Source: Actinomycetota bacterium (GTDB taxonomy: Bacteria > Actinomycetota > Thermoleophilia > UBA2241). From it: a DNA stretch of 46,461 bases. Of the stretch, positions 6,151-46,461 are shown in pieces. The notes beneath the pieces are model-generated. The model searched no databases. It saw only the letters and a list, made by a program, of their open reading frames with translations, and was not told where the DNA came from. The stretch's first letter is position 1; each line of letters begins with the position of its first letter. Location of the stretch: positions 3,405-49,865 of the forward strand of contig PKYG01000131.1 in assembly GCA_003132585.1 (NCBI GenBank), given 5' to 3'. The position numbers and the translations under genes were made by a program.

Positions 6151-6220
6151 GATCTGCTTCCTGCTTTTCGGTCCGAGAACCCTAACCTCAGGGTGGACCG
6201 ATTTCAGGGGTGCCGGTCAC
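6151..6220 (+). repeat. Degenerate 70-bp repeat, copy 1 (IS-end-like)
   Basis: The block starts GATCTGCTTC, contains CGGTCCGA..ACC.TAACCT and GGTGGACCGA.TTCAGGGGTG, and ends GGTCAC. A second copy in the same orientation lies at 17804-17874, with one small indel and roughly 85 percent identity by eye. The GGTCC...GGACC arms could pair. It resembles the outer end of an insertion sequence, but no transposase is attached. The rest of 6056-6355 holds no recognisable gene. Confidence 0.5.
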
Positions 6221-11927: not shown

Positions 11928-12280
11928 GACCGCTCCTTTCCCGTCCGGCGCCCGCGCGGTCCACGCGCGCAGGCCGGACGCTTCTCCCACTCCGGGTAGT
12001 CGCACCCACCCTGGACGTGCCTGTCCACGCCGACCTTGCCCTCGTCGCCCAGTGCGTTCCGGGCAAGGAGAAGCCCGCCGCTGCTTGAGAGATTGCAGAC
12101 AAGCCAGCCGTGCTAAGACGTGCCTACCTTGTCGCGCCTCGGCGTGTCACGCCACGCTTCACTGGCCTGCCGTGCCACGCCTCGCCATACCAAGCATCTG
12201 CGACGGCCACTTGCACTGTAGCACCGCAGCCACAGAGAGGCACCATTGGCCGTTGCGACGCCGAATGACCTCTCAAGTCG

Positions 12281-12358
12281 CGCCGATGTCGGCAGAAGTG
12301 GTGACTTTCGGTGTCGGGCAGGTGTCGTCGCGACGAGGGAGATGCCGACTTGCAGGAG
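12281..12358 (+). repeat. Degenerate direct repeat, copy A
   Basis: About 78 bp containing GGTGACTTTCGGTG and GTCGTCGCGACGAGGGAGAT recur in the same orientation at 12948-13024 with about 80 percent identity by eye. Copy B sits directly beside a tRNA-Cys 3' fragment, so the repeat looks like the downstream flank of that tRNA. Copy A has no tRNA part. The rest of 11928-12400 shows no gene. Confidence 0.5.
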
Positions 12359-12757: not shown

Positions 12758-12947
12758 GATGTGACCTCCTGAGAATACTCGAAGTTAGGTCGCAGGTATG
12801 GGTACCCAGTTGTAAGGGGGCTCAAGCGTTGTTTCGGCCAGCGAGCACGTCAAGGTTGAAGGCAGGCGTAGCCACAAAGAGAAGGAGCCGCGGCGGCGAG
12901 CAGCACAGACCTCGTCTGTGCAGCGCGATAGTCGGCACTTGCTGGCG

Positions 12948-13024
12948 CGAATGTCGGCGCACTTGGTGACTTTCGGTGACCGGCAGGGGTCGTCGCGACG
13001 AGGGAGATCCCGATTAGCAGGGGT
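12948..13024 (+). repeat. Degenerate direct repeat, copy B, next to tRNA fragment
   Basis: This is the partner of 12281-12358: GGTGACTTTCGGTGACCGGC and GTCGTCGCGACGAGGGAGAT. On the minus strand it lies directly downstream of the tRNA-Cys 3' fragment at 13031-13074, as expected for the flank of an integration target. Confidence 0.5.
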
Positions 13025-13030
13025 TTTTGC

Positions 13031-13074
13031 TGGAGGCGGCGACCGGAGTCGAACCGGTGATGGAGGTTTTGCAG
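13031..13074 (-). tRNA. tRNA-Cys 3' fragment, copy 1 (not a complete tRNA)
   Basis: Read on the minus strand, this has CTGCAAA (anticodon loop with GCA), ACCTC, a 4-nt variable loop, the T-arm ACCGG-TTCGACT-CCGGT, the acceptor strand CGCCGCC, then T and CCA. The 5' half is absent: the sequence before the anticodon cannot pair with ACCTC, and no GGCGGCG acceptor strand occurs upstream. Such half-tRNAs are typical of attachment-site duplications left by integrative elements. The remainder of 13075-13397 shows no gene. Confidence 0.7.
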
Positions 13075-16069: not shown

Positions 16070-16207
16070 ATGAGGATCGGGTTCCTCGGCGACAGCCTGA
16101 CCGAAGGATGGCCCGGTGAGTCGTTTCTTGCCCGGCTGGGACCGCTGCTGCCTCAGCTCGAGCTCTTCAACCTCGGCAGCGCTGGCGAACAGCGATGGTG
16201 CCGATGA
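16070..16207 (+). pseudogene. SGNH/GDSL hydrolase, N-terminal fragment
   Basis: ATG 16070 to TGA 16207 encodes 45 aa: MRIGFLGDSLTEGWPGESFL, then ARLGPLLPQLELFNLGSAGE. GDSLTEG with the catalytic Ser is block I of SGNH hydrolases, and LFNLGxxG is the start of block II. The gene is cut at about residue 40, exactly where the second tRNA-fragment repeat begins, so an integration or recombination event truncated it. An intact enzyme would be about 180-220 aa. Confidence 0.72.
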
Positions 16208-16220
16208 ACAGGGGTTTTGC

Positions 16221-16257
16221 TAGAGACGGCGACCGGAGTCGAACCGGTGATGGAGGT
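16221..16257 (-). repeat. tRNA-Cys 3' fragment, copy 2, with flank
   Basis: Minus-strand ACCTCCATCACCGGTTCGAC then TCCGGTCGCCG repeats copy 1 at 13031-13074; the next bases, TCTCTAGC, differ from CCTCCAGC, so the CCA is lost. The shared block continues beyond the tRNA into AGCAAAACCCCTG (16208-16220), and both copies point the same way. It is shorter than copy 1: the anticodon loop is not conserved. Confidence 0.7.
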
Positions 16258-16356
16258 CTTGTTCTTGTGTCCAGGCAGGAGAAACGTGCTATTTGCAACG
16301 ACAGCGCCGCGGCGCCCGTCACCGGAGCCGCGGCACGGACACAGAAGGAGGCGATC

Positions 16357-17803: not shown

Positions 17804-17874
17804 GATCTGCTTCATCCTTCTTCGGTCCGAAAACCATAACCTCAAGGTGGACCGACTTCAGGGGTGCAGATCAC
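17804..17874 (+). repeat. Degenerate 70-bp repeat, copy 2 (IS-end-like)
   Basis: This is the same block as 6151-6220: GATCTGCTTC, CTTCGGTCCGAAAACC, TAACCTCAAGGTGGACCGAC, TTCAGGGGTG, GATCAC. It ends 1 bp before the hydrolase stop at 17876. No transposase gene accompanies either copy. Confidence 0.5.
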
Positions 17875-20500: not shown

Positions 20501-21684
20501 TGAAGGGCACACAAACGCCCGCTTCGCTCACGCGACCAGGTCGTACTCGTGGATCAGCCCGCCGAGGACGTCTCGCCGTCGCAGTTGCGCGGTCGAGACA
20601 AACGCGACCGGCTGCGTGCCTTCGCCCTGCGGCACGCGCAGGCCGAGCCCGCGGTGGGGCCGCTTGGCATTGTAGTGGTCGACGTACTCAGCGAGCACCT
20701 TCTCCAGGTGTCTGCGACCAGCGATAATCATCCAGTCCAGGCATTCCCTACGCACGGTGCGCACCCAGCGTTCGGCAAAGGCGTTCACCTTGGGAGCCTG
20801 GATGGGCGTGCGAATCACTCTGATCCCCTCCGCGGTGAACACCGAATCGAAGCTGGAGGTGTACTTGCAGTCCCGGTCTCTGAGCAGGAATCGAAACGTT
20901 CGACTCTCATCGGCAAGGTCGCAGGAGAGGTTTCTCGCCTGCTGGGTGACCCAGGCCGCGTTGGGGTTGCGGGCCACACCGAGAATGTGGATCCGTCGGC
21001 TTCCGACCTCGATCGCAAACAGCACGTAGAAGGTGCGCAGAAAGAGGCTGTCTACGGTGAAGAAGTCAAAGGCGAGGATGCCGTGCGCCTGGGCTCTGAT
21101 GAACTCAGACCAGGTTGGCCCCTGGCGGCGCGGTGCGGGGCCCAGGCCGTGGCGGCGCAGCAGGGTGCGAATCGTGCTGGCCGAGGCCCTGAGGTTGAGC
21201 TTGGCGAGCTCGCCCTGGATGCGTCGGCAGCCCCATCGCGGGTTCTCCCTGGCCAGGCGCAGCACCAACGCGGCGACCTCTGCCTGGAGCCCCGGACGGC
21301 CGCCACGGGCGACCCGCCGGAAGGTCCATCGGCGGCGCACAAGCTCCCGGTGCCAGCGCAGGAGAGTCGAGGGGCTGACCAGAAACGTCTGCCAGGCGCC
21401 TCGGAGCAGGGCCCGGCTGGCCGCCGCCAGCAGGAGACGATCGCGACGCCTCAGTCTCGGGCGGGCGATCTGGCGAGAAAGGACCTTGAGCTGGTGGCGC
21501 AAGACGAGGATCTCGAGGTCCTTCGAGCGGTCGTTCTCTAACGGGCCGACCGCCCATTCCACCAGCCTGCGCAGGGCGAGGTAGAGCAAGGCGAATGCCA
21601 CCGGCGGATGCCTCCTTGGTCGGGACGAGAGATCTGCAAGGAAACACGGCTCAGCGCGGCTGTCCAGAGTTTCTGTGCCCTTCA
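20501..21684 (-). mobile_element. Complete insertion sequence, 1184 bp, IS3/IS481-like
   Basis: Imperfect terminal inverted repeats bound the single transposase gene: TGAAGGGCACACAAAC at 20501 and, at the other end, GTTTCTGTGCCCTTCA as its near-complement ending at 21684 (TG...CA ends). I see no target-site duplication: the flanks are CCACACCCCC and GGCAAGCTCG. The right end abuts a phage terminase fragment. A related but not identical element is cut by the right window edge at 46461. Confidence 0.75.
20528..21601 (-). CDS. DDE integrase-core transposase
   Basis: This 357-aa protein starts at GTG 21601. An N-terminal HTH region (LVLRHQLKVLSRQIARPRLR, ENPRWGCRRIQGELAKL) precedes the rve integrase core. 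Catalytic acidic residues are visible in ILAFDFFTVD, FLLRDRDCKYT and NAFAERWVRTVRRECLDW. The conserved C-terminus is HYNAKRPHRGLGL, then LGGLIHEYDLVA. The protein seems full length and intact, so the element may be active. Confidence 0.92.
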   Translation of the reverse strand: MAFALLYLALRRLVEWAVGPLENDRSKDLEILVLRHQLKVLSRQIARPRLRRRDRLLLAAASRALLRGAWQTFLVSPSTLLRWHRELVRRRWTFRRVARGGRPGLQAEVAALVLRLARENPRWGCRRIQGELAKLNLRASASTIRTLLRRHGLGPAPRRQGPTWSEFIRAQAHGILAFDFFTVDSLFLRTFYVLFAIEVGSRRIHILGVARNPNAAWVTQQARNLSCDLADESRTFRFLLRDRDCKYTSSFDSVFTAEGIRVIRTPIQAPKVNAFAERWVRTVRRECLDWMIIAGRRHLEKVLAEYVDHYNAKRPHRGLGLRVPQGEGTQPVAFVSTAQLRRRDVLGGLIHEYDLVA

Positions 21685-26252: not shown

Positions 26253-27335
26253 TCATTTGCAGAGGAGCGGTCGCGAGCCCCGTGTAACCCGCACCGGACC
26301 CCGGGGAGTCGCGACGACGGTGTCTTCGATACGCACCCCGAAGCGACCCGGCAGGTAAATGCCTGGTTCAACGGTGAAGACCATGCCGGACCTGACAACT
26401 TCTTCATTGCCAGTCACCACGGAGGGCGGTTCGTGAACGTCGAGTCCCAGTCCGTGGCCGGTCCGGCCCTCAAGCGCGAAACCCGCGTCTGACAGAGCTT
26501 GGCTGGCTGCGCGGTCTATGCTCTCGATCGTTGCTCCCACCAGAGAGGCCCGCACTCCGGCCTCCTGCGCGGCGAAGACGGCTTCGTACACCTGGACGTA
26601 GTCCGCCGTCGGCGTGCCGAGGAAGACCTGCTGCGTGATGTCGGCGAAGTAGCCATCAACCCGCACAGCGATGTCGATGAGCACTGGCTCGCCCTCACGG
26701 ATCTCACGAGGTCCGGCATCGTGGTGCGGCGATGCCGACTCGGGGCCTGCCTGAACAACGACGAAGTCCATCGACTCGGCTCCGCCTTGCCAGAGCGCAG
26801 TCTCGATCTCACTTCTCAGGAGACGCTCGCTGATGCCAGGGCGAGCCCGCTCCAAAGCCACGTCAACACCGACCGACACGAGCTCTCCTGCACGCTTGAT
26901 CCGCTCCAGCTCTTCATCCGACTTCACGATCCGCAAGGGGCCAATCAACTCGCTTAGTCGCCGCGCCGCCCTTGTCCCCAGCCGGCTCTGCAACTCGGCG
27001 AGAAACGCGTACGGTAGCTCGTCGTCGACGGCCGTGACCGGAGCATCGGGCAGCTCTCCCAGCTTGGCGAAGGCAGCGTCCACGCCTGGCTGGGGACCAA
27101 ACTTGTCGTTCCAGTCGGCCACGTTCTGGAACCCGGTGATGTCGAGAAACTCGGGAACGCCGAAATCAGGGATCAGCATCACGGCTGAATCCCGAGTAAC
27201 GAGAAGGACCGTTATGCGGTCGTCCACCGGGGCGGGGTAGTCAATAAGGTAGCGGAGGTTCGCCGTCGGGCCGACGACGACCAAATCGACTTCTTCGCGA
27301 GCCATGACCGTCTGCAATGCCGTCAATCGATTCAC
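26253..27335 (-). CDS. M24 metallopeptidase (Xaa-Pro peptidase-like), copy 1
   Basis: This 360-aa protein has an N-terminal creatinase-like domain (1-120) and a pita-bread catalytic domain. All five metal ligands are visible: Asp in VLIDIAV, Asp in YFADITQQVF, His in TGHGLGLDVHEPP, Glu in FTVEPGIY and Glu in VRIEDTV. This favours a metallopeptidase over creatinase, which lacks the ligands. The start is GTG 27335 after AGGAGGAGG, 13 bp past the ATPase stop. It is near-identical to the M24 gene at 43149 (about 88 percent by eye) but lacks three codons (DYV) just before the metal His loop. It probably cleaves imported peptides with N-terminal Xaa-Pro bonds or similar. Confidence 0.92.
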   Translation of the reverse strand: MNRLTALQTVMAREEVDLVVVGPTANLRYLIDYPAPVDDRITVLLVTRDSAVMLIPDFGVPEFLDITGFQNVADWNDKFGPQPGVDAAFAKLGELPDAPVTAVDDELPYAFLAELQSRLGTRAARRLSELIGPLRIVKSDEELERIKRAGELVSVGVDVALERARPGISERLLRSEIETALWQGGAESMDFVVVQAGPESASPHHDAGPREIREGEPVLIDIAVRVDGYFADITQQVFLGTPTADYVQVYEAVFAAQEAGVRASLVGATIESIDRAASQALSDAGFALEGRTGHGLGLDVHEPPSVVTGNEEVVRSGMVFTVEPGIYLPGRFGVRIEDTVVATPRGPVRVTRGSRPLLCK

Positions 27336-27348
27336 CTTAGTCCTCCTC

Positions 27349-28359
27349 CTAGAAGATCGAGCCGAGGTTGTCTGGGGTTTGGCCCAGTGCGTCTTGTCCG
27401 CGGCCGCCGTGGCTCACGAGGACGGGGTTCAGCTCCTCTGCCCTGTGACAGGCGACAGAGTGTTCCGCCCACAGTCGGCGCAGGAGGGGAGTTTCCTCTC
27501 GGCAGCGCTGCACGACAAAAGGGCATCGCGGATTGAAGCGGCAACCCGCCGGCGGATGGGCAGGGTCGGGAACGATACCCGGCACGACGACACGCGCTCT
27601 CCGGTCGGCGATATCGATCTCGGGCACCGCCGAGCGTAAGGCTCGCGTGTAGGGATGCGCCGGACTGCTCAGTAGCTGCCCTGTGGGACCCTGCTCAATG
27701 ACCTGGCCCAAGTACAAAACCGCAGCCTCCTCACAAAGCTGCTGGACCACGGCTAGATTGTGCGATATCAGAAAGTAGGCAAGCTGCCGTTTCTCTCGCA
27801 GCTCGGCGATGAGCCGCAGGATTCGCGCCTGAACCGTTACATCGAGGGCACTGGTGGGTTCGTCAAGAATGAGCGTTCGTGGCTCGACGGCGAGAGCCCT
27901 GGCGATTGCCACTCTTTGTCTCTGGCCACCCGAGAGTTCATGGGGGAATCTCGAGGAGGTGGCGGACTCCAACCCCACTTCTTCCAAGAGCTCGTCCACG
28001 CGGTGGCCGAACTCATCTCGGGAAACCACTCTGTGCACGCGCAACGCCTCACGAATGGCCGGCCCCACGCGCATCCTCGGATCGAGAGTGCTATCAGCGT
28101 CCTGGAAGACAATCTGCACGGCGCGACGATACGCACGGAGCGCACCACCGCGAAGACGGAAGACGTCGTGACCATCCAGCAGAACGCTTCCTCCAGCCAG
28201 GGGTATCAGGCGCATCACAGCACGCGCGATCGTGGTCTTGCCGGAGCCGCTTTCGCCCACGATTCCGAGCCCGAAAGGCCCAGCAGGAAGGGTCAGAGAC
28301 ACCCCATCGACGGCGTGCACGGATTCGAACACCACATGGAGCGCGCGAACCTCGAGCAC
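27349..28359 (-). CDS. Peptide ABC transporter ATPase, DppF/OppF type
   Basis: This 336-aa protein starts at GTG 28359, 3 nt after the stop of the DppD-type gene. It has Walker A GESGSGKTT, signature LSGGQRQRVAIA, Walker B LILDEPTSALD and the switch His in LISHNLA. The C-terminal oligopeptide-transporter extension with a Cys-rich FeS-like segment is present (HPPAGCRFNPRCPFVVQRCR). With DppD it powers import through DppBC. Confidence 0.94.
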   Translation of the reverse strand: MLEVRALHVVFESVHAVDGVSLTLPAGPFGLGIVGESGSGKTTIARAVMRLIPLAGGSVLLDGHDVFRLRGGALRAYRRAVQIVFQDADSTLDPRMRVGPAIREALRVHRVVSRDEFGHRVDELLEEVGLESATSSRFPHELSGGQRQRVAIARALAVEPRTLILDEPTSALDVTVQARILRLIAELREKRQLAYFLISHNLAVVQQLCEEAAVLYLGQVIEQGPTGQLLSSPAHPYTRALRSAVPEIDIADRRARVVVPGIVPDPAHPPAGCRFNPRCPFVVQRCREETPLLRRLWAEHSVACHRAEELNPVLVSHGGRGQDALGQTPDNLGSIF

Positions 28360-34394: not shown

Positions 34395-36431
34395 TCACGC
34401 TCCCCTCGTGTCGATAAGGAACAGTGCACCTGACGAGTGTGTCTCCAACTCGATGCCGACATCGATGTAGGTTGTGGCGGTCTCCTCGGCCACGATCGCA
34501 GGCCCCGCAATTCGCACCCCTGGGGACAGAGACGATCTGTGCAGCAAGGTGAAGCTGCGCCGACCTGCCGTCGCGAACGAGTAGGCGTCGACAGAGCGCT
34601 GTTTCCATGCGCTCGCAACCGTGGAGACGGAGTGCGATTGACGACGCCGAGGCAGAGGGGTACGACTCGTGGCGCGAACGGTCGTCAATTCCACCTCTTC
34701 GTCAAGCGTGTGGCCGAACGCGGCTCGATAGGCACGATTGAATCCGCTGTGCACCTCATCATGACTCGCCGAGAACGATCCCGAGTCGAGGGGAACGTCG
34801 ATGGTGAGCGTGTATTCCTGGCCCGCGTACCGCAGGTCAAGGCCTGCCTCCATCGTCTGCTCGCCCATACCGTTGCTTTCCCGATCCTGCAACCTTTGAG
34901 CCAGATCACCGAATACCCGGTTCGCAGCCAGCAAGCCACTCGAGTCGAGGGGAGCAATACACGTACGTGCAGCACTCCGGGCGATGTCTTGGCCAAGAAG
35001 ACCCCAAGCAGAGAAGTTGCCGGCGTGGTTTGGAATGACCATGCGCAGGATGCCGAGCTCCCTCGCCAGGAGGCCGCAAAACATGGGGCCCGCTCCACCA
35101 AAGGCCACCAACGTCGCTTCTCGAGGATCCTCGCCCTGTTCGAGAGTAACCGATCGAATCGCGCCCGCCATGCTCGCCGAAACGATCCTCAGGATGCCCA
35201 GGGCCGTCTCGTCGATCCCTAGGCCGAGCTTCTCGCCGAGCAAAGCTACTGCGCGCCGCGCAGCCTCCACGTCAAGTGTCACACCGCCGGCCAGCTCGCC
35301 GAAGGCAAGCCAACCCAACGTCGCCGCCGCATCCGTGACTGTCGGCTCGACACCCCCGCGACCGTAGCAGGCCGGACCAGGAACGGCGCCGGCGCTCCGC
35401 GGGCCGACCCGCAGCAGGCCGCCTTCGTCGAAGAAGGCAACGGAGCCGCCTCCGGCACCAATGGAACGAACATCGATCCAGGGCGTTTGCAGCGGCAGAC
35501 CCGCAACCGTGCCCTCGTACTTCAGCTGCGGCTGCCCCTCGCGGATCAGGCAGCAGTCAAAGCTCGTTCCACCGACGTCGGCGCTGATCGCGCTCGTGAC
35601 GCCAAGGTCGCGGCAGACTTCGGCTGCGCCGATCGCACCGGCGACAGGTCCCGACATGATGGTCTCGAAGGTACGCTCTTCCGCTTCCTCGAAAGTCATG
35701 GATCCGCCGCCGGAGCGGGTCACAAGGCAGGACCCCTTGAAACCAGACTCATTGAGATCACGCCTTAGTCGCCGCAGGTAGTGAACAAGGTGCGGGCGAA
35801 TGTACGCGTCCACGACCGTGGTTGCCGTCCTTTCATATTCGTGGAATTCGCCCGTCACGAGGTGAGAGAGCGCTACGTCTACTTCCAAGCCCGACTCGCG
35901 CAGGATTCTGAGTGCGGCAAGCTCATGCTCGGGATTTGCGTAGGAGTTGAGGAAGACAATCGCGACGCATTCCACGTTGTCTGCGACAAGCATCTCCGCG
36001 GCCTGTCTTACCTCGTCAATGACCAACGGCCGCTCGACGCGTCCGTCGACTCGTATTCGTTCGGTGATCGGAATCCTCAGCCTGCGCGGAACCAGAGGAG
36101 GAGGTGCATTCCAGAGGTAGTCGTAGACCGCCTCGCGGTCCCCCCTCCTTATCTCGAGAACGTCGCGGAATCCGCGGGTCGTGAGCAGCGCAACACGTGC
36201 ACCCTGGCGTTCCAGAAGCGCGTTGATACCAACAGTCGTTCCGTGAAGGAAGAACTCGCAGGACGCCAGTTGACGGGACGAGAGTGTTTCGCCGACGACC
36301 GACGAAATGGCCTGCTCGGGAGCGGCCGGAGTGCTGGGGCGCTTCGCGACGTCTACGCAGCCAGAGACGTCGTCGTAGAAGATCAGGTCGGTGAAGGTCC
36401 CTCCGACATCTACTCCCAGACGAGTAGCCAA
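34395..36431 (-). CDS. hyuA: Hydantoinase A / 5-oxoprolinase alpha subunit family
   Basis: This protein of about 678 aa is counted from TTG 36431, chosen because GGAGG lies 6 nt upstream and the protein then begins ATRLGVDVGGTFTDLIFYDD, the family's standard N-terminus. A start at TTG 36479 would add 16 residues. Other marks are FFLHGTTVGINALLERQGAR, GFRDVLEIRRG, SGPVAGAIGAA, ADVGGTSFD and the actin-like ATPase core. It is the first gene of the long minus-strand series; the conserved ~200-bp element lies directly upstream. Confidence 0.93.
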   Translation of the reverse strand: MATRLGVDVGGTFTDLIFYDDVSGCVDVAKRPSTPAAPEQAISSVVGETLSSRQLASCEFFLHGTTVGINALLERQGARVALLTTRGFRDVLEIRRGDREAVYDYLWNAPPPLVPRRLRIPITERIRVDGRVERPLVIDEVRQAAEMLVADNVECVAIVFLNSYANPEHELAALRILRESGLEVDVALSHLVTGEFHEYERTATTVVDAYIRPHLVHYLRRLRRDLNESGFKGSCLVTRSGGGSMTFEEAEERTFETIMSGPVAGAIGAAEVCRDLGVTSAISADVGGTSFDCCLIREGQPQLKYEGTVAGLPLQTPWIDVRSIGAGGGSVAFFDEGGLLRVGPRSAGAVPGPACYGRGGVEPTVTDAAATLGWLAFGELAGGVTLDVEAARRAVALLGEKLGLGIDETALGILRIVSASMAGAIRSVTLEQGEDPREATLVAFGGAGPMFCGLLARELGILRMVIPNHAGNFSAWGLLGQDIARSAARTCIAPLDSSGLLAANRVFGDLAQRLQDRESNGMGEQTMEAGLDLRYAGQEYTLTIDVPLDSGSFSASHDEVHSGFNRAYRAAFGHTLDEEVELTTVRATSRTPLPRRRQSHSVSTVASAWKQRSVDAYSFATAGRRSFTLLHRSSLSPGVRIAGPAIVAEETATTYIDVGIELETHSSGALFLIDTRGA

Positions 36432-36508
36432 CCGTGGCCTCCGAGCAATGGTCCCCCTCAGGTATGGCCAGTGCGCCAACCTTCAACCAGTAAATGCGTG
36501 CCACAACT

Positions 36509-36708
36509 TTCCGAACAACTCAAACAGCGGTTGGGCGACCGATTTCATCCACTGCCTGCGCGGTGAAGATCCATCGCCGCGGCGGTCGCCCGACCATACC
36601 ACGGTTATACTGTGGCCGCGGTCGTAATCGACGCAACAGCCGAGGCGCCATGTCCCGTATGCAGGACTGTATCTGCAGCCGGGGACCACACCGGGACCGT
36701 ACGCCCCG
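36509..36708 (-). promoter_or_regulatory. Conserved ~200-bp leader element, copy 1 (upstream of hyuA)
   Basis: About 200 bp here recur in inverted orientation at 42843-43042 with only around a dozen differences by eye. Read on the minus strand it ends about 77 bp before the chosen hyuA start, in the same sense as the gene; copy 2 has the same relation to the second M24 gene. A single-base indel changes frame between the copies, so it is not a conserved coding region. A 9-bp perfect stem (GGGCGACCG / CGGTCGCCC at 36583-36591 and 36533-36541) closes a 41-nt loop in both copies. Near the middle is TATAAC, a possible -10. It may be a promoter/operator, a structured 5' leader or a short mobile element. 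Confidence 0.65.
36599..36615. promoter_or_regulatory. Operator-like palindrome over a possible -10 box
   Basis: CCACGGTTATACTGTGG is an imperfect 17-bp palindrome (CCACnGTnnnACnGTGG) containing TATAAC on the minus strand. It suits a repressor site upstream of hyuA. In copy 2 (42935-42950) one base of the right arm is deleted. Confidence 0.4.
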
Positions 36709-36774
36709 GTCGGCTTCGCTCAGATAGGCGAGACTACCGCGGCGCGGTAGCTCGTCGCTGTCAGAGGTCGGCAC
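36709..36774 (-). pseudogene. Truncated second mttB homolog, N-terminus only
   Basis: A GTG at 36774, preceded by GGAAGGA and 14 bp after the mttB stop, opens MPTSDSDELPRRGSLAYLSE then ADR. This aligns with the start of the adjacent MttB protein (MPISESHKPLWAGRLTYLSE, AD), so a tandem paralog once began here. The similarity ends exactly at the boundary of the ~200-bp element. Confidence 0.6.
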
Positions 36775-36788
36775 GATCGAGTCCTTCC

Positions 36789-38243
36789 CTACTTGCCGGG
36801 GACGAAGCCCTCGACCAGCGCGTCGATGCGCGCCGCGAGGTCCGGGGGGAGTGGCGCCAGCCGGTGGGTCTCGAGCAGCTTCAGGGCCTTCTGGCGGGCC
36901 TTCTCTCGCAGGTCGAGCCCGCCTTCCTCGAGCCAGCGCACGTGGCCCTGCCGGTTGATGATCGTCGGGCGCCACTGCGCCGTGCGCACGTGCTTGGCGG
37001 TATGCTTGGCGGAGAGGAAGTCGCCGCCGGGACCGACCTGACGGATGGTGTCTATGGCCAGGGTCTCGGGGCTCACCTCGACGCCGGCGAAAATGCGGCG
37101 GTTCAGCGAGATGTACTCGTCAACGATGACGATGAGCTCGAGCGACGCGGTGAGACCGAAATCGAGATAGCCCACATCGTGATTGAGGTTCGAGCCGGCG
37201 GCGAGACACAACAGGGCCAGCTCGGCGATCTCCGCACCTGCCTGCGCGTCGACGACCTGTGAGTCGGAGGTGCCGCCGTATCCCCAGTTGGGCAGGTCGA
37301 GCCAACGCGCCATCTCGATCTGGCAGAGGAATGTCATCAGGTACTCGGGGGCGTTGTACGAGGACTGAGACGTGGACATGTCCAGCACTGCCGGGCCGAT
37401 GCCGAAGAGGAACGGCGCGCCCGGCCGCCGCAGCTGGTGGATCACCAGGCCGAACAGCGATTCGGCAGTGCCCTGGGCGGTATGACCGGCGACCGTGATC
37501 GGCGCCGTGCCACCGGCCAGGGGCGCCGGCGAGTAGATCGCCGGGATGCCGCGGTCGGCGCAGAAGAGCAGCTTGCCCACGCTTTCCACGGGGTGCTCGA
37601 GCGGGCTCACGGGCTCCAGGTACAGCGTGACGTACGGCTTGGCGCGGAGCTCCTCGGCGCCGCCACGTAGCTGGCAGGCGATCTTCCACATCACTTCGAG
37701 GTCGCCGGTGTTCTCGGACGTCATGACTATGGGCTTGGTCGTGTTTGCGACCATGGCGCGCAGGCTCTCCAGGTACGATCGGTGCGGTTCCACGTCGTTG
37801 GGATGGGCACACGACATCACGAAGTCGATGTTGGGGAGCGCGTCGCAGAGGCGGGCGGCGCGAGCGACGTCGGACAGCCCGCTCGGCCGGTGCTCCCCGG
37901 TCTCCAGATCGTAGGTGCTCATCAGATCGGAGCCGGTACCGAAGTAGCTGTTGGCGCCACCAAGGCTCATGGCGGCTCGACCGTCGCGGTCGAACACCTC
38001 GATTACGCGCGGGGCGGTGGAGCGCGCTTTATCCACAAGCTCGCGCGGGATGGTCACGAGGTCCGGTTTCGTGACTGCGCAGCCAGCGGCGCGCAGTAGC
38101 TCCAGGGCCTCGCGGTGATGGACACGCATGCCGACGGTGCCGACAATCTCGAGGGCCGCATCGAAGATGGCCTGCTTGTCGGCCTCGCTCAGGTAGGTCA
38201 GGCGGCCCGCCCACAGGGGCTTGTGAGACTCAGATATCGGCAT
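36789..38243 (-). CDS. Trimethylamine methyltransferase (MttB) family protein, apparently non-pyrrolysine
   Basis: This protein of 484 aa is counted from ATG 38243 (GGGAGGA upstream). It has the MttB-family architecture, with EIVGTVGMRVHHREALELLR near the start and YFGTGSDLMSTYDLETGEHR, PIVMTSENTGDLEVMWKIAC, SPAPLAGGTAPITVAGHTAQ and SNLNHDVGYLDFGLTASLEL later. No in-frame TAG interrupts it, so it belongs to the large non-pyrrolysine group, whose studied member MtgB demethylates glycine betaine. It would transfer a methyl group from a quaternary amine or related donor to a corrinoid protein such as the one at 4753. It is divergent from an IclR-type regulator. A truncated second copy follows. 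Confidence 0.9.
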   Translation of the reverse strand: MPISESHKPLWAGRLTYLSEADKQAIFDAALEIVGTVGMRVHHREALELLRAAGCAVTKPDLVTIPRELVDKARSTAPRVIEVFDRDGRAAMSLGGANSYFGTGSDLMSTYDLETGEHRPSGLSDVARAARLCDALPNIDFVMSCAHPNDVEPHRSYLESLRAMVANTTKPIVMTSENTGDLEVMWKIACQLRGGAEELRAKPYVTLYLEPVSPLEHPVESVGKLLFCADRGIPAIYSPAPLAGGTAPITVAGHTAQGTAESLFGLVIHQLRRPGAPFLFGIGPAVLDMSTSQSSYNAPEYLMTFLCQIEMARWLDLPNWGYGGTSDSQVVDAQAGAEIAELALLCLAAGSNLNHDVGYLDFGLTASLELIVIVDEYISLNRRIFAGVEVSPETLAIDTIRQVGPGGDFLSAKHTAKHVRTAQWRPTIINRQGHVRWLEEGGLDLREKARQKALKLLETHRLAPLPPDLAARIDALVEGFVPGK

Positions 38244-38460
38244 CGTTGGATCCTCCCAGCGTGACGTTCGCGGTCTGCAAATTCCACCCTGACGTGCAGA
38301 GCCGACCACATCAAGCGTCGCCGGGGACTGTCCAGCAATTTGAACTGGTTCTCGTTGCGCTGCGACCAAGTGGCCGCTATGCTGGATTCGTCCCCGGCAA
38401 GATTGATGCGCTGTCGTCACCTCTCTTCCTTGCGGACAAGCGTCAGTTAGGAGATGCGCC

Positions 38461-39330
38461 GTGCCCCAGAACGCTCCGCTCGAGGAAACGGCCACGACGT
38501 GGGGCGCCGCAAGGGTCCTGGATGTGCTCCGGTTCCTCGGGCGCCGCATGAACCCGGCGCCAGCGAGCATCATCGCCTCGTCATGCGGCATCCCCAGGTC
38601 GAGCACGTACGGCCTGCTCAATCTCCTGAAGGCGCATCGGTTCGTCGCCTATCGGGCGAACGAGCACGTCTGGTCTCTCGGTCCCGCCGCCTTCGAACTC
38701 AGCGCCGACGCTCCGCTGCTCGCCCACGGCCTGGCCGTCCTCAGAGCGTTCGCCACGGTCTCGCGCAGCCTGACGCCGCAGCAGATCGCGAGCGGCGCCG
38801 GGATGTCCCGCGGCGCCGTGGCTCGCATCCTTCCCTACCTCGTCGAGAGCGACCTCCTGCGCGCCGACCCCGACGGCACGTACTCGCTGGGTCTCGAGCT
38901 CGTCAGTCTCGCGTCGAGGGTCGGTTGGGCCGACCGACTTCGCCTGGCGGCGCGCCCACACCTCGTGCGTTTGCGTGACGCTACCCGTGAGACGGCCAAC
39001 CTCATCGTCCTCGACGGCGACCACGCGCTCTACGTCGACCAGGTCGAGAGCGCCTACGCCCTGCGACACAGCGGGTGGGTCGGTCGCCGCGTGCTACTGG
39101 CGGGCACGGCCACGGGCGCCGCTTTCCAGGACCGCACCAAGTCGCATGTGGCAGCCGACGCTGTGGAGATCGGGGTCACCGCGATCGCCTGCGTCGTCGA
39201 TCTCCCATCCAACGACGCCGCCGTCAGCATCACGGCGCCAAGCTGGCGCATCGAGGAGTTCGGCGTGTCGCGGGCGCAGCGCATGGTCGAGGCCGTGGCT
39301 CAGGAAATCGGGCAAACACTCAAGACCTAG
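38461..39330 (+). CDS. IclR-family regulator with two tandem HTH domains
   Basis: This 289-aa protein starts at GTG 38461 after TTAGGAG. Residues about 17-75 form one IclR winged helix (AARVLDVLRFLGRRMNPAPA, IPRSSTYGLLNLLKAHRFVA). Residues about 88-148 form a second (GLAVLRAFATVSRSLTPQQI, MSRGAVARILPYLVESDLLR, YSLGLELVSLAS). The effector-binding domain after 150 (ARPHLVRLRDATRETANLIV) is shortened to about 135 residues. Normal IclR proteins have one HTH and about 250 aa. It is divergent from mttB across 217 bp and probably controls it. Confidence 0.87.
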   Translation: MPQNAPLEETATTWGAARVLDVLRFLGRRMNPAPASIIASSCGIPRSSTYGLLNLLKAHRFVAYRANEHVWSLGPAAFELSADAPLLAHGLAVLRAFATVSRSLTPQQIASGAGMSRGAVARILPYLVESDLLRADPDGTYSLGLELVSLASRVGWADRLRLAARPHLVRLRDATRETANLIVLDGDHALYVDQVESAYALRHSGWVGRRVLLAGTATGAAFQDRTKSHVAADAVEIGVTAIACVVDLPSNDAAVSITAPSWRIEEFGVSRAQRMVEAVAQEIGQTLKT

Positions 39331-39464
39331 GTGAGTCGTTTATCGTTCACTTGAGGACGCACTCACCTGGCTCGAGCTAATGAGACGTGGCCACGACCGC
39401 CGTTGCGAATGAGAGCTCCGGCATCCTGATGTCGGCCCCAATTCTGCCACCGCATGAGGGTGCC

Positions 39465-41180
39465 TTATCGGCCGGAATCGGAACGAGGCGTGTGCTCCTG
39501 TTCAATGAACCACTCGACGTGGCTCTCGAGGGCCGTCATTGGGAGTGAACCATGAACAAGGATTGTCTCGTGAAAGCGTTTGATGTCGAACGCCCCACTT
39601 AAAGCCTGTTCGGCTCGGGCACGCAGCCGCTTCATGGCCTGGAAGCCGAGTGAATAGATCAATGACTGTGCGGGCATGTCGCAGGCATACCGCAGACACT
39701 CGGAATGTATGTGGGCTTCCGACTCGAAGATGTGACCGCGCAGGAAATCGGCGGCACGGCCAAGCGACCAGCCGAAGCCGTTCATGCCGGTGTCGACGAC
39801 CAACCGAGCAGCCATGAAGATCTCCTGGACCATGCGCCCGCAGTAGTCGAATGGGTCATCGTAGAGACCCATCTCCTCGGCGAAACTGGCGGCGTACTCG
39901 GCCCACCCGTCACCAAAGATGTCGACGTAGCAGTTTCTGCGATAGGGGTGAAGATCAGGAGCCTCGGCCTGCCTCGCGATTTGCATGTGGTGACCCGGCA
40001 TGAGCTCGTGGTAGATGAGATCCGCCGCGCTTAGCAGGGGAGTCTGCCGTGGTGCGCTAGAGTTGTAGTAGTAGCAGCCGAAGGGCGCGGCTGCGGTCGG
40101 TTCCCTGTAGAGACCAAACGTTTCTGCAAGACCGCGCTCAGGGGGAAGTGGCTCGATGCGACACGGCGTCGCCGGGAGCCGCAGGAAGTAGCGGGGAAGC
40201 GCCTCGTCTGCGCGCTGCATATAGCCCGCCAAGCGTACGCCGATCTCCTCGCGAGTCGACACGTAGGTGCGAGGGTGCGCCTGCAGTTGCTCAAACGCTG
40301 CCGGCAGAGAATCCGCTCGCAATCCCATGCGTCGGGTCGCGTCAATGACCTTCTCTTCCAGACGCCCGACCTCGTCGAGGCCTATGCGGTGGATATCCTC
40401 CGGTGCGAGGTCTAGCGACGTGTACCGCCGGATCATGAGTTGATAGACGCTCTCGCCGTCCGGGTACTGATGTAGGCCGACCTTCTCGGGCGCTGCCGCA
40501 AAGTACTCGCGGCCAATCGTCTCAAGAAGTTTGCCGAACGGAGGGCGAACGCGGTCTCGGATGGCGTGCGCCAGTCTCGATTGGAAGCGCTCCCTGCGGC
40601 GACGATCGACGGCGGAAAGGCGCTCATCGGCGACCCAAAATGAGTGCTGCTCAAACTCTCGGAGGAAGCTTGCGAGGTAGGGAGTGATCAGCCTGAGTTC
40701 TTCCTGGGGGATGAGTATGCGGCGGCGGCGCTGTTCCTTGATGTTGGCAGTGATCTTGTCTATGAACGCCGGCCACTGGTCGACTAGATCGAGGTACTCG
40801 TCAAGCTGGTCGTCCGTCTCCAGAGGAAGGCGCGAGAGCACCTCCTCGAACAGAGGTATCGGTGACTGGAATGGAGCGACCTGAAAGTGATGCCAGAAGA
40901 CCTGCGGTGCTTTCACGTCTACCTCGAGGTCCCGCTGCAGAACCTGGAGCGTCAGCCGGTCATCATGGCCAAGCTCGTCCAGCCGAATCGAAGCAAGCTC
41001 CGACAACAGCGGGCGAGCGAACTCCGCCTCCCTCTCGACGTGCTCAAACGAGACATCGGGGAGCTGTGCTACGCGCATCCCTAGCCTGAGACTGAGGAAC
41101 GGGTCACGATCAACCTTCCTCCGCCAGTACTGCTCGAGAACGCTGCCTAGTGCTTGCGATGCTGGGGATGGCTCACTCAT
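39465..41180 (-). CDS. DUF885-family metallopeptidase-like protein
   Basis: This 571-aa protein is counted from ATG 41180 (AAGGAG upstream); the longer open frame is low-complexity. The C-terminal half has YHELMPGHHMQ, the DUF885 HExxPGHH-type zinc motif, and a downstream Glu in FGDGWAEYAASFAEE. No signal peptide is seen, so it likely acts in the cytoplasm. Family members are presumed peptidases/carboxypeptidases. It converges with the IclR gene and is divergent from the M42 peptidase gene. Confidence 0.88.
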   Translation of the reverse strand: MSEPSPASQALGSVLEQYWRRKVDRDPFLSLRLGMRVAQLPDVSFEHVEREAEFARPLLSELASIRLDELGHDDRLTLQVLQRDLEVDVKAPQVFWHHFQVAPFQSPIPLFEEVLSRLPLETDDQLDEYLDLVDQWPAFIDKITANIKEQRRRRILIPQEELRLITPYLASFLREFEQHSFWVADERLSAVDRRRRERFQSRLAHAIRDRVRPPFGKLLETIGREYFAAAPEKVGLHQYPDGESVYQLMIRRYTSLDLAPEDIHRIGLDEVGRLEEKVIDATRRMGLRADSLPAAFEQLQAHPRTYVSTREEIGVRLAGYMQRADEALPRYFLRLPATPCRIEPLPPERGLAETFGLYREPTAAAPFGCYYYNSSAPRQTPLLSAADLIYHELMPGHHMQIARQAEAPDLHPYRRNCYVDIFGDGWAEYAASFAEEMGLYDDPFDYCGRMVQEIFMAARLVVDTGMNGFGWSLGRAADFLRGHIFESEAHIHSECLRYACDMPAQSLIYSLGFQAMKRLRARAEQALSGAFDIKRFHETILVHGSLPMTALESHVEWFIEQEHTPRSDSGR

Positions 41181-41665
41181 GGCTCGGGTCTCCTTGCAGT
41201 ATGTCGCCGGACATCTCCCGCGCCCTGTCGCGCCACCACGACAGAAATCAGGCCCATGTTGGATCCGTCCCCGCTTGAGGAACCGACCGTCCCGGGCTCC
41301 AGCAGCGGAGTTGGCGCACGTTAATGAGCGCGACAGCGAAGGAGAAAGCGTAGAGAGGCTGCGCGAAGGATAGCCAATCGCCGCCTTGTGCCTGCATGAG
41401 CAACCCCTGGCCCCACGAGGCCCCCAGTCTCGTCTCTTCCCGGCGCGATGCGCTTGTCCGGGCGAGCACACAACTTCACTCTGTTCCCCAATCGAGAGTC
41501 ACGTCAAGAGCACGAATTCCCCCTGCTCGTCGCGCACCTCTCCCCATTTTCCGGTTGCGTTCAGCTTCGTCGATGCTGTTAAGTCTTGGACATAGCCGCC
41601 AGCCGCAGGCTAAGCTCTGCCGTGTTCTTAGCTGAACGGATCGGCCTAAGCTCCGGGGGTACGAG
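41181..41665. other. Divergent intergenic region DUF885 / M42
   Basis: This 485-bp stretch has no recognisable gene and must contain the two divergent promoters. I see no long repeat or strong hairpin here. Confidence 0.4.
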
Positions 41666-42745
41666 ATGACGCTTGATGTGGAATTTCTGAAGGATCTCTG
41701 TCTGGCGCCGGGCCCGAGCGGTTTCCAGGCGCCCGCTCAGGAGATCGTACGCAGACGCGTGGAAGCCGTCGCGAAGGTGGACGGAGATCCCCTGGGGAAC
41801 ATCTGGGCCGAGGTGAACCCCGATGGTTCTCCCCACGTTCTCGTTGTTGCCCATGGCGATCAAATTGGGCTGATTGCGACCCACGTCGACGAGCGGGGGT
41901 TCGTGTACTTCGATGCCATTGGCACAGTGGACCCTCAGCTGCTGCCCGGCCACGACCTGGTCATCCACACGAAGAGGGGGCCGGTGCGAGGCGTTGTCGG
42001 CAGGCCGCCCACTCACATCATCCCGGAGGGCGAGCGTGGCAAGGCGCCGCCCATAGGCGAGCAGTTCATCGATATTGGCGCGTCGAGTCAGGCGGTTGCC
42101 TTGGAACGTGTGACCGTGGGGGATCCAATCACATTTGCTCCCCGTTTTTTTGAGCTCTCGCAGGACATCTATTGCTCACTCGCGCTAGACAATCGGGCCG
42201 GCGTGTATTCCGCCTTTCGCGGACTCGAACTGTATGCGGGTATGTCCGGCAAGGCCCGCTTGACGGTGGTATCGAGCGCTCACGAAGAGACGACACTCAT
42301 GGGAGCCAAGGCGCTGGCTCACCGCTTCCAGCCAGACTGCACAATTGTCGTTGACGGGGAGTTTACCAGCGACTATCCAGGCGTGGACGCGAAGAGAATC
42401 GGGGGGGAACACAAATTGGGTGGGGGGCCTGTTCTTGCCCGGGGTTCGGCAGGAAATGAGCCTCTGTTCTGGCTTTCCATGGAGGTCGCCGAGGCGGAGC
42501 ACATTCCCGTTCAGGTCAGAGCTTTCGCTGGTTACTGGGCCACTGACGGCGATGAACTGGCCGCCGCTGGCGCTACGGCGACCCTCTCTGTGGCCGTTCC
42601 CATGCGCTACGTGCACACACCATGTGAGGTCGTGTGCGGTGAAGATCTCGAAGCTGTTGCCAGACTGCTCGCTGCGTTGACAAGGCACCTGGGTGAGGTA
42701 TTCGAGCCAGGCTGTTTCGTGCCCCGGAGTGGTCCGCTCTCCTGA
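41666..42745 (+). CDS. M42-family metallopeptidase (aminopeptidase/endoglucanase family)
   Basis: This 359-aa protein starts at ATG 41666. Co-catalytic metal-site residues are visible: His in VVAHGDQIG, Asp in SLALDNRAG, the catalytic Glu pair in SAHEETTLMGAK, Asp in IVVDGEF and the late His in MRYVHTPCEV. GPSGFQAPAQEIVRRRVEAV is the usual N-terminal motif. These enzymes form large tetrahedral complexes that trim N-terminal residues from short peptides in the cytoplasm. The gene lies upstream of the second leader element and M24 copy 2, so this strand has two consecutive peptidases. Confidence 0.92.
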   Translation: MTLDVEFLKDLCLAPGPSGFQAPAQEIVRRRVEAVAKVDGDPLGNIWAEVNPDGSPHVLVVAHGDQIGLIATHVDERGFVYFDAIGTVDPQLLPGHDLVIHTKRGPVRGVVGRPPTHIIPEGERGKAPPIGEQFIDIGASSQAVALERVTVGDPITFAPRFFELSQDIYCSLALDNRAGVYSAFRGLELYAGMSGKARLTVVSSAHEETTLMGAKALAHRFQPDCTIVVDGEFTSDYPGVDAKRIGGEHKLGGGPVLARGSAGNEPLFWLSMEVAEAEHIPVQVRAFAGYWATDGDELAAAGATATLSVAVPMRYVHTPCEVVCGEDLEAVARLLAALTRHLGEVFEPGCFVPRSGPLS

Positions 42746-42842
42746 CTCCGCACGCAGGCGGAGGTCCCCACGTTGACTTGCTGGCGCCGCTCGAGCTCGG
42801 CGCAGGCACGCTGCGCGGGGCCGGCGAGCGCGTGAAATGACC

Positions 42843-43042
42843 AGGCCGTACGGCCCCGGTGTGGTCCCCGGCTGCAGATACAGTCCTGCATACGGGACAT
42901 GGCGCCTCGGCTGTTGCGTCGATTACAACCGCGGCCACAGTATAACCTGGTATGGTCGGGCGACCGCCTCGGCGATGGATCTTCACCGCGCAGGCAGTGG
43001 ATGAAATCGGTCGCCCAGCCGCAGTTTTCAGTTGTTCGGGAG
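42843..43042 (+). promoter_or_regulatory. Conserved ~200-bp leader element, copy 2 (upstream of M24 copy 2)
   Basis: This is the inverted partner of 36509-36708, ending 106 bp before the M24 start and in the same sense as that gene. The closing stem is kept (GGGCGACCG 42958-42966, CGGTCGCCC 43008-43016). The palindrome over the possible -10 has lost one base (CCACAGTATAACC-TGG, 42935-42950). At its left edge is a perfect GGCCGTACGGCC that copy 1 lacks. Confidence 0.65.
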
Positions 43043-43148
43043 GCAGGAGAGCTGACGCGTGACCTGGTGAGCGATGACGGCCGAGGGCAGGTCACGCCGA
43101 GCCAGACCCTAGACGAGCTCGGCCCCATCCGCTAAGAGGAGGTCTCAA

Positions 43149-44240
43149 GTGGATCGAGTGACGGCTTTGCAGGCAGCCATGGCGCGCGAAGAAGTCGACT
43201 TGGTCGTCGTCGGCCCCACCGCCAACCTCCGCTACCTCATCGACTACCCCGCTCCAGTGGACGAACGTTTAACGGTTCTTCTCGTTACCCGGGAATCGGC
43301 GGTGATGCTGATCCCTGATTTCGGGGTCCCCGAGTTTCTCGACATCACCGGCTTCCAGAGCGTGGCCGAGTGGAGCGACGTGCACGGTCCGAAGCCAGGT
43401 GTGGATGCTGCCTTCGCTAAGCTGGGAGAGCTGCCCGATGCTCCGGTCACGGCCATCGACGACGAGCTGCCGTTCGCGTTTCTCGCCGAGCTTCATAGCC
43501 GGCTGGGGACGAAGTGGCCGCGGCGGGCAAGCGAGTTGATCGGCCCCCTGCGGATCGTGAAGTCGGATGAGGAGCTGGAGCGGATCAAACGTGCGGGAGA
43601 GCTCGTCTCGGTCGGCGTCGATGTCGCCATGGAACGGGCTCGCCCCGGGATCACCGAGCGCCTCTTGAGAAGTGAGATCGAGACCGCGCTCTGGCAAGGC
43701 GGAGCCGAGTCGATGGACTTCGTCGTTGTGCAAGCGGGTCCCGAGTCGGCATCGCCGCACCACGATGCAGGCCCCCGCGAGCTTCGCGAAGGCGAGCCAG
43801 TGCTCATCGACATCGCCGTGCGGGTGGACGGCTACTTCGCCGATATCACGCAGCAGGTCTTCCTCGGCACGCCGGCGGCGGACTACGTACGCACGTACGA
43901 GGCCGTCTTCGCAGCCCAGGAAGCTGGAGTGCAGGCCTCGGTAGTGGGAGCAACGATCGAGAGCATCGACCGAGCGGCGGGGCAAGTGCTTACCGATGCG
44001 GGTTTCGTAGATTACGTGCTCGAGGGGTCAACCGGCCACGGATTGGGACTCGATGTTCACGAACCGCCCGCCGTGATGGCTGGCAACGAGGAGGCTGTCA
44101 GGTCCGGCATGGTCTTCACCGTCGAGCCGGGCATCTACCTGTCGGGTCGATACGGGATACGGATCGAGGATACCGTCATCGCGACTCCCCAGGGGCCGGC
44201 GCGGGTTACACGGGGATCTCGCCCGCTGCTCTGCAAGTGA
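43149..44240 (+). CDS. M24 metallopeptidase (Xaa-Pro peptidase-like), copy 2
   Basis: This 363-aa protein starts at GTG 43149, preceded by AAGAGGAGG. It is a close paralog of 26253-27335 over its full length; similarity begins at the ribosome binding site and stops within a few bases after the stop codon. It keeps the metal ligands (VLIDIAV, FADITQQVF, TGHGLGLDVHEPP, FTVEPGIY, IRIEDTV) and has the FVDYVLEG segment that copy 1 lacks, so it is nearer the family norm. A family 5 binding protein follows 124 bp later on the same strand. Confidence 0.93.
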   Translation: MDRVTALQAAMAREEVDLVVVGPTANLRYLIDYPAPVDERLTVLLVTRESAVMLIPDFGVPEFLDITGFQSVAEWSDVHGPKPGVDAAFAKLGELPDAPVTAIDDELPFAFLAELHSRLGTKWPRRASELIGPLRIVKSDEELERIKRAGELVSVGVDVAMERARPGITERLLRSEIETALWQGGAESMDFVVVQAGPESASPHHDAGPRELREGEPVLIDIAVRVDGYFADITQQVFLGTPAADYVRTYEAVFAAQEAGVQASVVGATIESIDRAAGQVLTDAGFVDYVLEGSTGHGLGLDVHEPPAVMAGNEEAVRSGMVFTVEPGIYLSGRYGIRIEDTVIATPQGPARVTRGSRPLLCK

Positions 44241-46209: not shown

Positions 46210-46461
46210 TCACGCCGCCAACTCGTACTCGTGGATCAGTCCGCCGAGGAGATCACGGCGCCGAACCATTGTCGCGGGCGGCGTGCCGAGGGGCCGCCTT
46301 CCGTCTGGGCATTCGAGTCCGATCCCGCGGTGCGGACGCGCGGCGTTGTAGTGCGTTACGTAGGTCCGCAGCACCACTTCGAGGTGTCGGCGCCCGAGGA
46401 TCAGCAGATGGTCCAAGCACTCCCGTCGCAGCGTTTCCACCCAGCGCTCGGCGAAGGCGTT
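46210..46461 (-). CDS. DDE transposase C-terminus, cut by window edge
   Basis: The minus-strand frame enters from the right edge with NAFAERWVETLRRECLDHLL and ends HYNAARPHRGIGL ... LLGGLIHEYELAA. It is homologous to the end of the transposase at 20528-21601 (NAFAERWVRTVRRECLDW ... LGGLIHEYDLVA) but clearly not identical, so it belongs to a related IS. The left IS end is probably near TGTGAGGTGCACAAACTC at about 46190. Confidence 0.88.
   Translation of the reverse strand, partial: NAFAERWVETLRRECLDHLLILGRRHLEVVLRTYVTHYNAARPHRGIGLECPDGRRPLGTPPATMVRRRDLLGGLIHEYELAA

Follow-up and report, generated by a model that had tools for sequence, protein, structure and literature searches.

A two-copy upstream region inverted at the ends of a 6.1-kb segment, and its possible origin by duplication associated with inversion

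Duplication associated with inversion, which was described in H. pylori (2011) and is cited for Thermus (PMC8963470, PMC4671568), is the process whose products the locus analysed here most closely resembles. The likeness lies in a short stretch that is inverted at both ends of a segment, its edges being sharp and its junctions free of insertion sequences; the locus differs in that no genome was found with the ancestral, uninverted order, that the duplicate is an intergenic upstream region, and that the two copies agree better in the core than towards the ends. There is a further resemblance to promoter capture by a duplicated gene: the paralogue here, the peptidase gene M24-B, is detached from its operon, has kept a piece of the gene that preceded it there, and follows upstream DNA belonging to another operon; a difference is that the block is a presumed promoter. 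Like cis-regulatory leader RNAs such as riboswitches and T-boxes, the block is non-coding, precedes metabolic genes in their own orientation and contains a conserved hairpin, but unlike them it has no Rfam match, shows no covariation between its two copies and was found in none of the other genomes searched. Finally, the block recalls MITEs and REP/BIME repeats in being short, intergenic and repeated and in containing inverted repeats, but is set apart from them by existing in two copies only and by terminal inverted repeats and target duplications not being seen.

The reading that we favor, at a probability of about one half, is that the blocks are a non-mobile, two-copy upstream region, serving two clusters for the scavenging of peptides and amides, that arose by local inverted duplication, which would have given M24-B the upstream DNA of hyuA, and that the core of this region has been held by selection or conversion.

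The inverted pair and the segment between its arms

The window, i.e., the whole stretch of DNA that was analysed, comprises 46,461 nt of contig PKYG01000131.1 (GCA_003132585.1) and makes up most of this contig, both ending at window base 46461. The source genome is a 3.0-Mb MAG of 142 contigs that is 91% complete. The repeated blocks and the genes that they enclose are as follows.

36511..36711, minus strand: element copy A, non-coding, downstream of mttB and followed by hyuA
36789..38621, minus strand: mttB-like methyltransferase, within the enclosed segment
38461..39330, plus strand: IclR-type regulator, divergent from mttB, the pair being kept in the family
39465..41471, minus strand: DUF885 protein (Pfam), within the enclosed segment
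41666..42745, plus strand: M42 aminopeptidase (Pfam), within the enclosed segment
42839..43039, plus strand: element copy B, non-coding, downstream of M42 and followed by M24-B

The two copies are 201 nt each, and 192 of 200 aligned bases are identical, with two 1-nt indels (BLAST E 4e-89; 95% identity counting gaps), a likeness far above chance expectation that includes exact runs of 72 and 48 nt. Both are oriented in the same way as the adjoining downstream gene, hyuA on the minus and M24-B on the plus strand, and a duplicated stretch stands, inverted, at both ends of one segment. An earlier note on this DNA had placed near-identical inverted blocks at 36509-36708 and 42843-43042, leading in the same sense into hyuA and a second M24 peptidase and enclosing about 6.1 kb with mttB, IclR, DUF885 and M42; its edges were correct within 4 bp, positions and strands agree, 6,127 nt separate the arms, and Pfam assignments confirm the gene content.

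Because the family retains the divergent mttB-IclR pair, at 72-80% (mttB) and 78-83% (IclR) identity, part of the enclosed segment at least is native. What follows mttB in relatives is either further mttB genes or unrelated DNA, not hyuA, and the other 14 genomes of the order contain no close relatives of hyuA and M24, so that the edges of the segment are new junctions in this lineage. DUF885 has no relatives in the order at E below 1e-80, and no relative was found with the segment between these flanks or with the pre-rearrangement gene order. The hyuAB-SBP-opp cluster is present in other families of the class, where no hyuA homologue has the block upstream. The high conservation of IclR beside mttB (36789-39330) across the family suggests, on the evidence of gene order and identity, that it controls the neighbouring MttB-type methyltransferases in this family.

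Exactly two copies of the block occur in its own MAG, which otherwise contains chance-level partial matches, the weak ones stacking on a single GC-rich 20-nt stretch. Copies were found neither in 60 relatives, nor in 399 genomes of the class, nor in plasmids and phages; exact 19-mers of the core are absent from the IMG/VR viral contigs and exact core 20-mers from GTDB r220. A covariance model of the core matched only copies A and B among 15 genomes of the order (next-best E 0.17). Weak matches to other parts in L003 and L004 (E about 6e-4), and one in L006 that is situated in a long open reading frame, were taken as chance.

Other repeats occur in the window. Direct 62-nt repeats at 13010-13071 and 16201-16261, which are 90% alike and contain an apparent tRNA or tmRNA 3' end (CCGGTTCGACTCCGGTCGCCGCCTCCA, minus strand), bound about 3.1 kb that includes an MFS transporter and look like the scars left at attachment sites by a small integrated element; ARAGORN found no intact gene in them and Rfam no match, and no tRNA or tmRNA genes were found in the window. 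A 77-nt direct repeat (12280-12356 and 12945-13021, 84% alike) extends in its second copy into the tRNA-like repeat, and a 71-nt direct repeat (6151-6220 and 17804-17874) is 87% alike. A transposase with an rve_3 integrase core lies at 20528-21601, and a 72%-identical fragment of it at the contig end (46210-46461).

The peptidase gene behind copy B

The genes around the second junction, and their counterparts in operon 1, are listed here.

26253..27335, minus strand: M24-A peptidase, next gene after oppF in operon 1
27349..28359, minus strand: oppF-type ABC ATPase, to whose 3' end the stub preceding M24-B is related
34395..36479, minus strand: hyuA (hydantoinase A), the likelier start being a TTG near 36434, behind GGAGG
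43042..43148, plus strand: oppF 3'-end stub with the 13-nt oppF-M24 spacer, 71% identical to 27336-27442, adjoining copy B
43149..44240, plus strand: M24-B peptidase, its protein 88% identical to M24-A (dN 0.068, dS 0.48)

Operon 1 has the order hyuA-hyuB-SBP-oppBCDF-M24, and the 107 nt upstream of M24-B are homologous to its last oppF codons and the spacer, the oppF part being in frame to the stop. Because the homology to oppF ends at 43042, and copy B ends at most 3 nt away at 43039, M24-B is a gene severed from an opp operon and now attached to the block. A search of genome_contigs for M24 found nothing.

M24-B is intact and under purifying selection (dN/dS about 0.14), and so is presumably expressed and presumably in need of a promoter. 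Roughly 297 nt separate the M42 stop from the stub, of which 201 are the block and only about 93 are other DNA. The block is the main DNA there that could act as the promoter of M24-B; it is possible that transcription comes instead by read-through from M42. Judged from the sequences, the acquisition of hyuA's upstream region by M24-B is likely.

Divergence, coding status and folding of the block

The block differs at 8 of 200 sites (4%), as against 31 of 107 sites (29%) in the stub and 62 of 196 four-fold sites (32%) between M24-A and M24-B (Fisher p 1e-9 and 8e-14, respectively). Given this disparity, the block was copied later, or was constrained, or was homogenised by conversion. The changes cluster at its ends, with 3 in about 150 core columns and 7 in 50 outer columns (p about 0.007 in a scan corrected for boundary choice). 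Because this pattern is unlike the neutral decay of a recent copy, selection or gene conversion has to be added, and constraint or conversion in the core is mildly favoured over a recent copy that decays evenly.

In that single-base indels (at 36602 in copy A and at 43025 in copy B) break the reading frames, and substitutions show no preference for synonymous sites, the block is non-coding. The frame-shifting indel that the earlier note reported is in fact two, and a coding origin was rejected: each of the six frames is broken in one copy or is without a Pfam match, there being no such match in any of them. The 9-bp stem GGGCGACCG / CGGTCGCCC, which the same note had described as conserved around a 41-nt loop, is present with the same sequence in copies A and B; since a perfect 9-bp inverted repeat is also present in 8% of shuffles, the stem alone is weak evidence. 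Another hairpin is likewise identical in both copies.

36653..36683, minus strand in copy A (42867-42897 in copy B): hairpin CCCG..TGCAG-8-CTGCA..CGGG, z about -3.4 and -2.9, picked post hoc

This small hairpin and a 71-nt hairpin on the antisense strand reach z about -3 to -4.5, both having been selected post hoc, and whole-block folds are only mildly stable (z about -1.6 to -2.1). Compensatory change, for which both sides of each predicted pair were compared between only two sequences, occurs in 0 of 63 pairs. Rfam matched nothing in the window at its gathering scores and nothing close to the element even when E values up to 1 were allowed, and a known leader-RNA family was for that reason rejected as the identity of the block. 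A search confined to the sigma-70 class found no -35 and -10 hexamers at 16-18 nt spacing in the block, and motifs of the block were not detected in the window's other intergenic regions. The suggestion that the copies are a common promoter or leader RNA therefore divides: a shared upstream control region is plausible, in that M24-B is under purifying selection, with only an oppF stub directly upstream and with most of the DNA before that made up by the block, whereas a structured leader RNA, though possible, is unsupported by the Rfam search, the folding, the predicted pairs and the promoter search.

Origin of the pair

Under duplication associated with inversion, a local rearrangement would have duplicated the upstream block in inverted orientation and, in the same event, set the ends of the mttB-IclR-DUF885-M42 segment. 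M24-B would have been excised from the middle of the opp operon, losing that operon's promoter, and placed directly behind a copy of the block preceding hyuA; by such promoter sharing, M24-B and the hyu-opp operon would start from common cis-regulatory DNA, and the core of the block would have stayed near-identical via selection or conversion between the copies. Inverted copies at the segment ends, the sharp edge of the stub and the restriction to two copies fit this course of events. Because no relative with the earlier order was found, the inversion is read from geometry alone. Recombination debris, one of the rivals raised in the earlier note, is still live: in the form of duplication associated with inversion it matches the geometry well, even though the earlier gene order was not found in relatives.

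It is conceivable, and we hold it tentatively, that the upstream region and M24 were duplicated jointly and long ago, leaving a truncated copy of operon 1 (block, deletion of hyuA-hyuB-SBP-oppBCD and most of oppF, stub, M24), and that strong purifying selection acts on the block as a promoter or structured leader. The order of block, oppF end and M24 is colinear with operon 1, and the block would then have evolved about ten times slower than the adjoining stub, its core and its hairpin (z about -3) conserved and its ends decayed; against this stand the hyuA homologues of other families with no block upstream and, for the leader, the two available sequences with no compensatory pair, the lack of an Rfam match and whole-element folding of only mild stability. 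If the inverted copies still undergo gene conversion or inversion with each other, this would keep them alike whatever their function, and the segment of 6.1 kb may flip. The two exact runs, of 72 and 48 nt, meet the length requirement for homologous recombination, and the likeness is greater in the core than at the ends, but the second orientation of the segment was not seen in any genome examined, and we consider this explanation unlikely. Similarly improbable is that the core of about 150-160 nt acts as a regulatory RNA or multi-site operator that is new, specific to this lineage and maintained by purifying selection, co-controlling the hydantoinase/oligopeptide uptake operon and the separated M24 peptidase operon, possibly via the IclR encoded between them.

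Double insertion of a MITE-like element, which the earlier note also envisaged, or of another mobile element is suggested by the shortness and non-coding nature of the repeat, its internal inverted repeats and the transposase remnants in the window. This origin is disfavoured to the point of being very unlikely, since there are just two copies in a 91%-complete genome, comparison of their edges showed no terminal inverted repeat or target duplication, and relatives, plasmids and phages lack the block, as viral contigs lack any exact 19-mer. Misassembly or another artefact, which the fragmentation of the MAG and the end of the contig at the last window base might encourage, we think very unlikely: both copies are within one contig, their unique flanks differ, the copies differ from each other, and mttB and IclR of the segment are native to the family.

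The M24-B locus is a readable case of an excised operon gene put under the upstream DNA of another operon: what is left of its former neighbour can still be seen, as can the upstream block that it borrowed and the point where the two join. And if the block is a promoter, two scavenging clusters would be linked by shared control, a link that could be dated against the age of the gene duplication.
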